From the NCBI GenBank assembly GCA_003724185.1, contig RHGM01000001.1, positions 1,262,001 through 1,326,000 on the forward strand: a stretch of 64,000 bases of DNA. Direction: 5' to 3'. Of this stretch, positions 49,023-53,024 are shown piece after piece; within the stretch, counting starts at the first letter, position 1, and each line of letters opens with the position of its first letter. Position numbers and translations under genes: made by a program. The stretch comes from Porphyrobacter sp. IPPAS B-1204 (GTDB lineage: Bacteria; Pseudomonadota; Alphaproteobacteria; Sphingomonadales; Sphingomonadaceae). The notes beneath the pieces are model-generated. The model made no database searches. It saw only the letters and a list, made by a program, of their open reading frames with translations, and had not been told where the DNA came from.

Positions 49023-49235
49023 TATGTTCTCTCCCGCACGGTACGGCCCCCAGGGCCCTATGCGCTGCGGGTCATTGCAAAGCCGCCGCTCTCTGGCAAG
49101 CCAGCGGGCGCGTGTCATCCGGAGGGAATATTGCGGGAAGATTGTGCGTTAATGGATGAGATTCGCAACCTTCTGCGTGGCGCAAGGTCCGAAGGTCATG
49201 TAGCGATTTGAGCATTGTCGAAAGCGAGAGACGTG
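49023..49235. promoter_or_regulatory. 213-bp divergent region between CaiB and manC genes
   Basis: Promoters for both directions should lie here. A 19-codon open frame (ATG 49152 to stop 49209-49211, peptide MDEIRNLLRGARSEGHVAI) lies 24 bases before manC. It could be a leader peptide, but nothing confirms translation. Confidence 0.3.
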
Positions 49236-50276
49236 ATGCACATCCATCCGGTAATTTTGTGCGGCGGCAGCGGCACGCGACTGTGGCCGGTCAGCCGGAA
49301 GGCCAAACCCAAGCCGTTTCTGCCCCTTGTGAGTGACGAGACTCTGTTCGAACAGGCTGTGCGCCGCGTGGCAGGGGATGATCGCTTTGCCCCGCCGATG
49401 GTGGTGGCAGGCAAGGCCCATGCCGATCTGATCATGGCGCAGCTTGGCGATACGCCGGGTGCGCGGCTGGTGATCGAACCGGCGGCAAAGAACACGGCGC
49501 CTGCCATAGCCCTTGCCGCAGCACTGCTGCCCGAAGATGCAGTGATGCTCGTCTGCCCGAGCGACCATCACATCGCTGACAGCGCGGCCTTTCGCGCGGC
49601 CGCGCTCGCCGCAGCGGCACTGGCGCGCGAGGATTACCTCGTCAGCTTCGGCATCGCGGCCGACCGGCCCGAAACCGGCTATGGCTATCTTCAGCGCGGC
49701 GAGCCGCTGGCCGGTGGCTTCGCGATCCGGCGCTTTGTTGAAAAGCCCGATCTGGCCCGTGCGCAGGACTATCTCGCCAGCGGGGATTACAGTTGGAACG
49801 GCGGAATCTTCGCCTTCCGCGCCGGGCACCTGCTGGCCGAACTGGCCGCCTATCGCCCCGACATGGCGCGGCTTGTGGCCGAGGCGGTTGCAGGCGGCTC
49901 GGCAGAGGGCGCGCGCTTCCACCCGGCGGCCGAACCCTTCGCTGCCATTGATGGCGATTCCATCGATTATGCCGTGATGGAAAACACCGCCCGCGCCGCA
50001 ATGGTCCCGGCCCACATGGGCTGGTCCGACATCGGCAACTGGGCAGCGCTTGCCGATGCGCTGGCCCACGACGCGGATGCAAGCGGCAATGTCGCGCGCG
50101 GCGGGCCGGTCGATTTCGCGCAATGCAGCGGCGTCTTTGCCATGTCCGATGGCCCGCGCATCTCGGCGGTGGGCCTCAATGACGTGTGCATCATCGTCTC
50201 CGGCGGAGAGGTGCTTGTCACCACCCGTGACGGGGCGCAAATCGTGGGCAAGCTGCCCGGCGCGGTGAACCAGTGA
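49236..50276 (+). CDS. manC: Mannose-1-phosphate guanylyltransferase
   Basis: Makes GDP-mannose from mannose-1-phosphate and GTP for exopolysaccharide and LPS. The nucleotidyltransferase signature is CGGSGTRLWPVSRKAKPKPF. FVEKPDLARAQ and YSWNGGIFAFRA complete the active site. The product has 346 residues and lacks the C-terminal isomerase domain of bifunctional AlgA/ManC; that function is encoded by the next gene. ATG 49236 has GAGAG before it. The stop overlaps manA as TGATG... sharing one base. Confidence 0.92.
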   Translation: MHIHPVILCGGSGTRLWPVSRKAKPKPFLPLVSDETLFEQAVRRVAGDDRFAPPMVVAGKAHADLIMAQLGDTPGARLVIEPAAKNTAPAIALAAALLPEDAVMLVCPSDHHIADSAAFRAAALAAAALAREDYLVSFGIAADRPETGYGYLQRGEPLAGGFAIRRFVEKPDLARAQDYLASGDYSWNGGIFAFRAGHLLAELAAYRPDMARLVAEAVAGGSAEGARFHPAAEPFAAIDGDSIDYAVMENTARAAMVPAHMGWSDIGNWAALADALAHDADASGNVARGGPVDFAQCSGVFAMSDGPRISAVGLNDVCIIVSGGEVLVTTRDGAQIVGKLPGAVNQ

Positions 50277-51073
50277 TGGCCCGCCAGCTCCCCACCCGCA
50301 TGGTCGCAAAGGTCTGGGGTCGCGACGTGTTGCCCGCCCCCTTTGCCGCGCCCGCTGGCGAGCGCATCGGCGAAATCTGGTTCGAGCCCCCGCCCGAAGT
50401 GCCGCAGGTGCTGGTCAAATACCTGTTCACTTCGGAAAAGCTGTCGGTGCAGGTCCACCCGTCGGATGACACTGCGATTGCGGGAGAGGCGGGCAAGGAG
50501 GAGTGCTGGCTGGTGCTCGACGCCGAGCCTGATGCGCGGCTTGCGATCGGTTTCGAACGTGAGGTGACCTCGGAAGAGATTGCCGCCGCCGCGCAGGACG
50601 GCACGATCGAGGCATTGCTGACCTGGCATCCGGCACGCCCCGGTGACCTGTTCTATCTCCCCGCGGGCACGGTCCACGCCATCGGCCCCGGCCTGTCGCT
50701 GGTCGAGGTGCAGCAGACCAGTGAGACCACCTTTCGCCTCTATGATTATGGCCGGCCGCGCGAGCTGCATCTTGAACGGGCACTGGCGGTGGCGGAAGGC
50801 GCGCCCTACGCCGCGACGCATCGCCGCTCGATTGCCAACGGGCAGGTGCTTGTCGATGGGCCGCACTTCCGGCTCGACCGGATCGAGGGCGCGCCCGATG
50901 CCGCCACGCTGGCCGCCTATCCGGAGGCGTTGCTGGTGCTGCCGCTGGCGGGCGAGGTTACCGCGCGCGATGGTTCCGCGCAGGCGGGCGCGGGGGAATG
51001 TCTCGTGGCGCACGGGCTCTCCAGCCTCGATTTCAGCGCCGCAGGCGTAACCTTGCTGACCCGTGCGGCCTGA
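50276..51073 (+). CDS. manA: Class I mannose-6-phosphate isomerase
   Basis: Zinc enzyme that interconverts fructose-6-phosphate and mannose-6-phosphate, 265 residues, short for the family. Metal-binding elements are SVQVHPSD (Gln and His), EECWLVLDAE and FYLPAGTVHAIGPG (His). ETTFRLYDYGR is a further class I block. It is translationally coupled to manC, giving a two-gene supply of GDP-mannose precursors; phosphomannomutase must be elsewhere. Confidence 0.9.
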   Translation: MARQLPTRMVAKVWGRDVLPAPFAAPAGERIGEIWFEPPPEVPQVLVKYLFTSEKLSVQVHPSDDTAIAGEAGKEECWLVLDAEPDARLAIGFEREVTSEEIAAAAQDGTIEALLTWHPARPGDLFYLPAGTVHAIGPGLSLVEVQQTSETTFRLYDYGRPRELHLERALAVAEGAPYAATHRRSIANGQVLVDGPHFRLDRIEGAPDAATLAAYPEALLVLPLAGEVTARDGSAQAGAGECLVAHGLSSLDFSAAGVTLLTRAA

Positions 51074-51177
51074 GGCGCCCTCTGCGCGCCCTCTGCTTGG
51101 GACGCTGAAATCCTGCCATCCCCGCGCAAAGGCAAACTTGCTTGTCTTGCGCCGCTTCAGGTGTAGCACCCGGCACC

Positions 51178-52080
51178 ATGCGCAGTCTGACCCATCTCGA
51201 ACGGCTTGAGGCCGAGAGCATCCACATCTTCCGCGAAGTCGTGGCCGAGGCGGAAAACCCGGTGATGCTCTATTCGGTGGGCAAGGATTCGTCCGTGATG
51301 CTGCACCTGGCGCGCAAGGCCTTCTATCCTGCCCCGCCGCCCTTCCCGATGCTGCATGTCGCCAGCGGATGGGATTTCGCCGACCTGCTCGCCCACCGCG
51401 ACAAGACCGTGCGCGAATACGGACTGAAGCTGATTGTTGCCCAGAATGACGAGGCCGAGGCGCAGGGCATCAACCCTTTCGACACCGGCAGCGCGCTCTA
51501 TAGCCAGGCCCAGCTGACTGATCCGCTGAAGCGTGCCTTGACCGCGCACGGGTTTGACGCAGCCTTCGGCGGCGGACGGCGAGACGAGGAAAAGGCGCGC
51601 GCGAAAGAACGCATCTTCAGCTTCCGCACCGCAGCGCACCGCTGGGACCCGAAGAACCAGCGCCCCGAACTCTGGAACCTCTACAACGCCAAGAAGGCCA
51701 AGGGCGAAAGCATCCGCGTCTTCCCGATCTCGAACTGGACCGAGCTCGACATCTGGCAGTACATCGCGGTGGAACAGATCGACATCGTCCCGCTCTATTT
51801 CAGCAAGCCTCGCCCGACTGTGGAGCGCGACGGGATGCTGCTGGTCGTCGATGATGACCGCTTCCGGCTCGAACCGGGCGAAGAGCCGGTCACCCGCCCG
51901 GTCCGCTTCCGCACGCTGGGCTGTTACCCCTTGACCGGTGCGACAGTGAGCGACGCGACCGAAATGAACGACATCATCCAGGAAATGCTGCTCGCCACGG
52001 GATCGGAACGGCAAGGCCGCGCCATCGACAAGGGGCAGTCCGCAAGCATGGAAGACAAGAAGGCGGAGGGGTACTTCTGA
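51178..52080 (+). CDS. cysD: Sulfate adenylyltransferase subunit 2
   Basis: Catalytic PP-loop subunit of ATP sulfurylase, which makes adenosine 5'-phosphosulfate in sulfate assimilation. The 300-residue product holds PP-loop SVGKDSS (33-39), [16 protein letters not shown] and PLYFSKPRP, and ends with the family-typical [10 protein letters not shown]. The GTPase subunit CysN is needed for efficient activity. The usual coupling TGATG to cysN is present, but cysN breaks off after 28 codons, so CysD would be without its partner unless another cysN exists elsewhere. Confidence 0.95.
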
Positions 52081-52163
52081 TGGACACCCCCTCCAGCTTC
52101 CAGACCGACGCTCTCATCGCCGAGGATATCGACGCCTATCTGGAACAGCACCAGCACAAGAGC
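52080..52163 (+). pseudogene. cysN: cysN 5' fragment (28 codons)
   Basis: The start overlaps cysD exactly as in intact cysDN operons. FQTDALIAEDIDAYLEQHQH followed by Lys-Ser matches the CysN/CysNC N-terminus. The next expected element, LLRFITCGSVDDGKST with the GTPase P-loop, is missing; unrelated sequence begins at about 52163. The reading frame happens to continue in frame to 53006, so a hybrid protein of 308 residues could be made. Deletion, rearrangement or an assembly chimera are all possible. Confidence 0.85.
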
Positions 52164-52275
52164 CCAGTCAATCACGGATTATCCATTGCGCAACCAGACC
52201 ATGCTGGCCTTCGCCGCATTCGCGCTCCTGCTGCTGGTCCGCAATGCCGCAGACCGGACGAGGGGGAACCGATGA
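52162..52275 (+). pseudogene. Probable 3' end of an O-antigen ligase/polymerase-like gene
   Basis: In the frame beginning at 52162 the sequence reads AQSITDYPLRNQTMLAFAAF, then a Leu-rich helix and a short basic tail ending at a TGA. A His/Gln-Ser-x-x-Asp-Tyr-Pro-Leu-Arg motif followed by a last transmembrane helix is typical of the C-terminus of Wzy/O-antigen-ligase-like proteins. The stop overlaps the start of the next gene as ATGA, the coupling expected of an intact operon. The rest of the gene is missing because it is joined to cysN. Confidence 0.55.
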
Positions 52276-53006
52276 TCGGCCGGATTGTCTGGTTTACCGC
52301 CCTGATCGGCATCGCATTGGTGACCGCCGCATTGCAGTTCGACATGCAATCGCGGCGAAGCCCGCAGCTTGCGGCAATGGTGCCTGCACCGTTGCGCGGC
52401 CATTCCCAGGTTCAGGTCGTGCGCAGCGCGCTGGCCGGGAAGGATGCCGCACTGGCCCTTGGCGAGGCGGAGCGTCTGTTGCAGCGCCGTCCCTTGCCCG
52501 CCGAAAATCTCGTGTTGCTTGCCACCGGACAGGCCAAGGCGGGCAAGCCCGATGACGCCATGCTGACCATCCAGATCGCCGGCCAGCGCGGCTGGCGTGA
52601 CCCGGTGGCGCAGCAAGCGGTGCTGCGCCTTGCGCTGGCCGCCGGAGACAAGCCTGAAGCCGCGCGCCGCTATGCCGCCCTGTTTCTGCAACGCCAGACC
52701 CCGGACGCTCTGCTGGAAGAGCTGGGGCAGGCCGTGCTCGACGAAGCACGCGGCCCCGGACAGCAGACGATGCTGGCGATCATCATCGGCGGTGAACGCT
52801 GGCATTCGATTTTCCTGCGGCGCGGGGCGCGGGTGATGCCGCCTGCCGCCTTCAGCGCGATCGTGGCCGATAGCATTGCGCGCGGCGTCCGTTTCGATTG
52901 CAACCTGCTGGGGCAGAGTGCCGGTATGCTGGCACAGCGCGATGCGGCCGCGGCCGCAGAGCTGCGTCAGGCCATCGCAGGTGATTGCCCGGCGACTGCC
53001 AGCTGA
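52272..53006 (+). CDS. Hypothetical membrane-anchored helical-repeat protein
   Basis: A 244-residue protein with one N-terminal transmembrane helix (about 5-24) and a mostly helical remainder. Repeating patterns such as GEAERLLQRRPLPAENLVLL and LALAAGDKPEAARRYAALF look TPR-like. ATG 52272 has AGGGGG four bases before it and overlaps the preceding ligase-like stop, so it probably belonged to a polysaccharide operon. The frame is also continuous with the cysN fragment from 52080. Function unknown. Confidence 0.6.
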   Translation: MIGRIVWFTALIGIALVTAALQFDMQSRRSPQLAAMVPAPLRGHSQVQVVRSALAGKDAALALGEAERLLQRRPLPAENLVLLATGQAKAGKPDDAMLTIQIAGQRGWRDPVAQQAVLRLALAAGDKPEAARRYAALFLQRQTPDALLEELGQAVLDEARGPGQQTMLAIIIGGERWHSIFLRRGARVMPPAAFSAIVADSIARGVRFDCNLLGQSAGMLAQRDAAAAAELRQAIAGDCPATAS

Positions 53007-53024
53007 ACGGCGGGCCGCCCGCGA

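Follow-up and report, generated by a model that had tools for sequence, protein, structure and literature searches.

The junction behind cysD

The window analysed here is the whole stretch of 64,000 nucleotides, positions 1262001-1326000 of a 1.77-Mb contig (C6) in the 3.55-Mb, 9-contig assembly of Porphyrobacter sp. IPPAS B-1204 (G000). The following features surround cysD.

49215 to 50276, plus strand: gene of the mannose-1-phosphate guanylyltransferase type, on the left side of the polysaccharide locus (NCBIfam TIGR01479, 321 bits, short of the 372.95 cut-off)
50273 to 51073, plus strand: mannose-6-phosphate isomerase-type gene (weak NCBIfam TIGR00218 match, 54.9 bits, below the cut-off of 116.2)
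51128 to 51145, plus strand: conserved element AAAGGCAAACTTGCTTGT upstream of cysD (core motif in related upstream regions)
51178 to 52080, plus strand: cysD, intact (Pfam PAPS_reduct, 5.2e-50; TIGR02039, 466.1 bits, cut-off 396.6)
52080 to 52164, plus strand: cysN stump of 28 codons and one base (alignment with intact cysN)
52164 to 52165, no strand: deletion junction AAGAGCC/CAGTC, the slash marking the join (also in G062; same ligase base, within 0-3 nt, in 21 further loci)
52165 to 52275, plus strand: final 36 codons, with the stop, of an O-antigen-ligase (Wzy_C) gene (homology to the full-length ligase C-terminus)
52080 to 53006, plus strand: open hybrid frame, 308 codons, running from the cysN stump through the out-of-frame tail into the 244-aa gene
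52272 to 53006, plus strand: 244-aa gene, intact, with a predicted N-terminal helix and an all-helical, TPR-like body (AlphaFold2 mean pLDDT 85.5)

The TGA of cysD and the ATG of cysN overlap as TGATG (52078-52082), which together with the family matches bears out an earlier note on this DNA that had described an intact cysD overlapping a cysN start. Homology to cysN ends at 52164, in keeping with the break after 28 codons that the note reported; the change of frame it placed near 52163 is real, but the junction lies at 52164/52165. From 52165 the +1 frame reads QSITDYPLRNQTMLAFAAFALLLLVRNAADRTRGNR, the first residues past the junction being QSITDYPLRNQT, and runs to a stop at 52273-52275 that forms an ATGA with the next gene. 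This tail aligns with residues 411-446 of a 450-residue ligase frame in G083 (locus L048) at 67% identity, so that the ATGA-coupled 3' part is indeed the end of a Wzy/ligase gene, as had been proposed. The full-length orthologue in G084 (P0001) carries the Wzy_C domain (Pfam, 2e-16), and this domain, combined with the C-terminal homology, places the gene that the tail belonged to in the Wzy_C family. No ligase body was found elsewhere in G000, the search returning only the tail (E 1e-5). The 244-aa gene has no Pfam or NCBIfam match. A Foldseek search with its model gave TPR proteins as top matches (best E 0.01, none at or below 0.001), and on this weak fold match we refer to the gene as TPR-like.

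A junction of this kind could be an assembly chimera whose two sides are separate in the cell, as the earlier note had allowed, and the odd gene content fits such an error. Nothing further does. When positions 51178-53010 were compared with 100 genomes from the genus, G000 included, and matches were listed best first, only Porphyrobacter sp. TH134 (G062) besides G000 matched query positions 1-1804 unbroken among the matches listed, at 78%. It has the same cysN-ligase junction, with a gapless alignment across AAGAGCC/CARTCRATCACGG. Because another species has the same join, aligned free of gaps, the junction is beyond chance. Analogous junctions occur in the one- or two-contig assemblies G083, G030 and G108, and 21 further loci have deletions ending at the same ligase base. 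We therefore reject the chimera, whose probability we consider negligible. The note's further reservation, that relatives might have this junction with a different gene there, is likewise unfounded, the junction being present in relatives with no other gene explaining it.

The missing segment and the second replicon

An intact counterpart of the locus is found in E. donghaensis DSM 16220 (G084), where the two ends of the junction lie approximately 40 kb apart in a polysaccharide cluster. The gene order there is CaiB - cysD - cysNC - cysQ - UDP-sugar dehydrogenase - glycosyltransferase - wecC - wecB, followed by Y (a 187-aa membrane protein on the minus strand), export and glycosyltransferase genes, rml genes, the ligase, the TPR-like gene and mmsB. 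Several of these names were assigned by eye, with family support for the dehydrogenases, epimerase, glycosyltransferase and ligase; across the loci, other names given without a family match, such as ManC, CaiB, mmsB, TolC, Wzc, Wza and that of the sugar transferase, are likewise readings by eye. The window keeps the left and right ends of this order and lacks the approximately 40 kb between them. As its two ends are this far apart in intact G084, we interpret the junction as a deletion, and the comparison of gene order upholds the earlier suggestion that part of a polysaccharide cluster is missing. Comparison of G083 with G084 likewise reveals a deletion of this type, exact and 35 kb long. The size of approximately 40 kb is that of the orthologous G084 cluster, and the deletion in G000 may have occurred in several steps.

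Such a deletion would remove cysN from codon 29 onwards, cysQ, the UDP-sugar dehydrogenase, the glycosyltransferase, wecC and wecB, together with the export and polymerisation genes up to ligase codon 410 (G083/L048 numbering). The last 36 ligase codons and the retained TPR-like gene would then be joined to the cysN stump. Genes of the wza type (PF02563) are present elsewhere in 25 of 25 genomes tested (in G000 on both C6 and C7), so the strains have not lost export of polysaccharides altogether and, judging by gene content, truncated strains may still export other polysaccharides. Loss or movement of a 30-40 kb surface-polysaccharide locus between relatives is also seen for Wzx/Wzy-type exopolysaccharide and O-antigen clusters; unlike that variation, the loss described here ends at one ligase base in 23 loci with nine left sites (see below).

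Contig C7 of G000 (217 kb) encodes its own replication and partition proteins (RPA (RepA), 5.8e-66; SopB-type (ParB-type) HTH, 3.9e-33), as plasmids and chromids do, and has a GC content of 59.9% over 213 kb, compared with 65.3% for the window. From repA/parB and composition it appears to be plasmid-like. A second cysN or cysNC in the genome, which the earlier note had considered, is indeed present: the only CysN above cut-off in G000 is a CysNC fusion on C7 (PRK05506, 1076 bits, cut-off 715; P-loop GSVDDGKST). The only CysD above cut-off is the window gene on C6, and no Sat-type ATP sulfurylase (PF01747) was found in G000. On C7, cysD is reduced to an in-frame remnant of 47 codons (27 of the start and 20 of the end), which is still preceded by the upstream element and still overlaps cysN through TGATG. 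C7 also carries wecC-wecB and cysQ, with rml genes elsewhere on the contig. G000 thus encodes the full-length CysD and CysNC, P-loop included, of a predicted CysDN(C) ATP sulfurylase, but no operon holds both, C6 having a cysN stump and C7 a cysD remnant. With full-length CysN only on C7 and full-length CysD on C6, the two subunits come from two replicons.

Simple excision of the missing segment onto C7 is ruled out, since the cysD end and cysN start are present on both C6 and C7 (158 nt shared, 81% identity); the second copy must therefore predate the losses. Because C7 also has cysNC, cysQ, wecC and wecB, G000 could tolerate the deletion. The cysD gene on C7 would have become redundant and shrunk to its 47-codon remnant, after which ATP sulfurylase would need the CysD of one replicon and the CysNC of the other. 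Such dependence would make C7 indispensable for sulfate assimilation. There is good support for the broken cysN as a genuine deletion for which a plasmid-like copy compensates, and we are confident, if short of certain, of the complete account, in which a chromosomal deletion of approximately 40 kb was tolerated through the C7 gene copies and left CysD and CysNC on two replicons. We infer the order of events, and likewise expression and phenotype of the divided enzyme.

The division is repeated in G062, with chromosomal cysD and the cysN stump on C24 and intact cysNC on C40, where the element upstream of cysNC is kept and cysD has decayed. In G041, intact cysD lies on C31, a cysN cut near codon 395 is joined to a ligase tail on C219, and an intact cysNC without cysD is found on C322. 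This fragmented assembly (350 contigs, approximately 90% complete, 5% contamination) probably represents the same division, with the link between C31 and C219 presumed. The start-stop overlap of cysD and cysN, the fusion of cysN to cysC and the position of cysQ after them agree with known cysDNC ATP sulfurylase/APS kinase operons, whereas here the full-length subunits are on two contigs, each beside a stump of the partner gene. Plasmids and chromids with essential host genes (e.g. PMC8297927, as far as the part consulted goes) similarly tie a core function to a secondary replicon; here, in contrast, only one subunit of a heteromeric enzyme is involved, after complementary losses, and indispensability is putative. 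A plasmid-like replicon may thus become indispensable through loss of one subunit gene from each side, the same subunit division occurring in two species and probably a third.

The element upstream of cysD (GCAAANTTGCTTG) is partly palindromic; of 36 distinct upstream regions, 23 have its core at a distance of 44-46 nt from the cysD start. It is also found at the second copies of G041 (C322) and G062 (C40), and as AAAATTGCTTG in C7; it persists in second copies that lack cysD, and is perhaps a cys regulatory site. In G054, taken as E. sanguineus DSM 11032, an in-frame internal cysD deletion at a contig edge joins codon 30 to approximately codon 237 (L057/L264, 1-212), and at the thresholds applied the assembly showed neither a complete CysD nor a complete CysN.

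The ligase breakpoint in related genomes

Of 114 genomes in the genus, 82 have the TPR-like gene (E 1e-15), at 84 places in total; 78 of these places were read, in sets of 42, 35 and one (G075). Only a ligase tail precedes the gene at 21 of these 78 Erythrobacter/Porphyrobacter loci (15, 5 and 1 by set). Outside the genus, 20 loci among the matches listed were read; 12 have the ligase motif and two, in G276 and G444 (both of genus g15), are tail-only. At all 23 tail-only loci the tail begins at the same ligase codon within 0-3 nt, the junction being ambiguous by up to 3 nt in wecB-type loci and by 2 nt in G444. The breakpoint is the Leu-Gln boundary of the ligase motif LQSITDYPLR, before QSITDYPLR. 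The 23 loci fall into nine different left sites, and several left ends recur to the exact base.

cysN, codon 28 (G000, G062): base-exact, twice
cysN, near codon 395 (G041)
glycosyltransferase, near codon 374 (G083, G059, G030, G065): base-exact, four times
wecB, near codon 304 (G074, G011): base-exact, twice
Y, Tyr/Phe-Gly boundary (G034, G028, G010, G054, G091, G051, G108, G018, G036): base-exact, nine times
UDP-sugar-dehydrogenase-type gene (G077)
cut integrase (G093)
chain-length/kinase-type gene, an assignment by eye (G075)
sugar transferase, named by eye (G276, G444)

Homology to intact relatives reaches the junction in seven of the nine left sites, the integrase and the kinase-type gene being the other two. 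Comparison of the relatives' sequences revealed no repeat, shared core or microhomology at the junctions except a CAG in one wecB-type locus, and no motif is common to the left sites. The pattern is broken by G039, where the deletion ends near ligase codon 98, beside the end of cysNC. A breakpoint common to 23 deletions and nine left sites, without a repeat, is not what random deletion gives. As side observations, seven left sites have intact orthologues, and in six of these (wecB being the exception) the deleted DNA starts with T in most orthologues, a number too small to judge; open fusion frames were noted in G083 (glycosyltransferase-TPR, 621 codons; L047, 14716 upstream) and G041 (cysN-TPR, 415 codons, cut by the contig end; L071).

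Age and possible origin of the deletions

On a tree of 77 downstream proteins, 20 rows of which are truncated, truncation needs 14 changes, at least 11 of them forced by strong branches. The truncated rows show some clustering (a value as low arose in 7 of 500 shuffles), and many branches are weak and parts of the tree unresolved. A single origin of all truncations finds no support in this tree, though many of its branches are weak. Counted by codon position of the ligase frame, the tails of G000 and G062 differ at 3, 2 and 11 sites (16 in 25 codons), and those of the same-junction pair L047-L069 at 4, 1 and 14. Means are 5.0, 3.2 and 13.7 for the glycosyltransferase type and 4.9, 1.6 and 13.1 for the Y type, compared with 6.6, 3.0 and 13.9 for intact ligase pairs; between species, divergence among tails of one junction type is similar to that among the tails of intact genes. 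The third-position excess, with P values of 0.004 and 0.0004 under equal rates (four pairs range to 0.010; the pairs were hand-chosen and non-independent, and the values are uncorrected), is unexpected if the tail has been non-coding since a shared deletion. A stop codon lies one codon before the tail in four of four glycosyltransferase-type loci, so in these the tail is not translated in frame from upstream. Remnants of Y show a weaker third-position trend (7.9, 5.8 and 15.4). These substitution patterns suggest that the deletions are recent and largely separate; it is conceivable that the tail keeps a function.

The alternative is that deletions were old and few and have spread by recombination in the conserved flanks, with a tail that is functional, for instance in expressing the TPR-like gene. 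Since both flanks are conserved genes, homologous recombination is a plausible route of import, and the many unresolved branches and the partial clustering of truncated rows leave room for it. We nevertheless consider it unlikely: glycosyltransferase-type tails are untranslatable from upstream yet keep the coding-type pattern, same-type tails differ between species about as much as intact genes, and spread would leave one right end for nine left sites unexplained. Retention of the deletion for the sake of its 308-codon hybrid, as a new functional protein, appears more improbable still. The hybrid frame raised in the earlier note does exist and is open in both G000 and G062, and open frames also enter the TPR-like gene from the glycosyltransferase (G083, G065) and from cysN (G041). 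However, the differences between the G000 and G062 tails fit the codon positions of the ligase frame (3, 2, 11) while the hybrid-frame residues differ widely, giving no sign of selection on a hybrid protein, and the upstream frame closes within 32 codons of the TPR-like start in 9 of 20 loci tested. What remained of the note's proposal is thus the frame, the case for a new fusion being weak.

Recent and largely separate deletions would be accounted for if a site-specific nuclease, recombinase or transposase recurrently cut the Leu-Gln boundary of the ligase and joined it to a few left sites, an explanation that we put forward tentatively and that adds to the deletion without excluding it. It agrees with a right end fixed to within 0-3 nt across 23 loci and nine left sites, with base-exact left ends in Y (nine times), the glycosyltransferase (four), cysN codon 28 (twice) and wecB (twice), with the 14 changes on the tree, at least 11 forced, with the coding-type pattern kept in the tails, and with paired transposases in five truncated genomes. 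On the other hand, the left sites lack a common motif and the junctions a shared core or element, third positions of the ligase motif vary freely, and the G039 deletion ends elsewhere, near ligase codon 98. The transposase pairs were found mainly where they were sought, in truncated genomes, and the enzyme is hypothetical. A wider scenario, possible but to our mind doubtful, is that a DNA-breaking or transposition system repeatedly deletes the cluster, often with transfer of its genes for sugar nucleotides and PAPS supply to replicons of conjugative or plasmid type, and that reciprocal decay then ties a core enzyme to these replicons.

Known mechanisms leave characteristic traces, and these were sought. 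The shared core expected for excision by a tyrosine or serine recombinase is absent from the left and ligase sites of relatives, homology passing straight from one side to the other at the junction, and no complete integrase with a duplicated core accompanies the ligase 3' end. Among the loci read, an integrase adjoins the tail only in G093, where the Phage_int_M match starts at 57 of 96 and the N-terminal part is missing; an integrase attachment site, suggested by this locus, was dropped because the integrase is cut. Neither an insertion sequence nor the end of one lies at the junction, seven of nine types being homologous up to it. Adjacent deletion by insertion sequences and excision of integrative elements resemble our case in having one fixed and one variable end and mobile genes near some copies, and differ from it in that the junctions examined show no element, duplicated core or terminal repeat. 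The titles and abstract openings of the literature matches listed mention neither a cysN-ligase junction nor a recurrent ligase breakpoint, which could reveal an unrecognised DNA-cutting activity on surface-polysaccharide loci.

The putative cutting enzyme is perhaps to be sought among paired IS1595-like transposases beside relocated cluster genes. Besides the exact deletion at the old locus, G083 has a second, nearly complete cluster elsewhere (UDP-sugar dehydrogenase unmatched), at C1 1168-1221 kb (L048, L223, L224) with its own cysDNC. It consists of two convergent halves separated by such a transposase pair, and conjugation-type genes flank it on either side. Comparable pairs are found beside wecB (G041, G059), beside cysN (G041, G062) and approximately 6 kb from the tail in G093. 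In these five genomes (regions L048 13129-14984, L046, L056, L124 and L243) the first transposase of the pair has a weak DDE match. As regions were fetched mainly for truncated genomes, the link between transposases and truncation is only suggestive. No terminal repeats surround the pairs, only chance-like inverted matches of 6-9 bp, and no pair was found on C7 (213 kb). In a plasmid collection, transposase 1 had no relative closer than 29.6% identity, and the ligase and the TPR-like gene likewise had distant relatives only, in 3 records and 1 record, respectively. The wecC-wecB block starts within 18 nt of the same place in G000, G041, G059, G093 and G083. In G084, an inverted repeat, TAAAATCGCG...CGCGATTTTA, is present before wecC (L061, 15605-15640), where the relocated wecC-wecB block begins.
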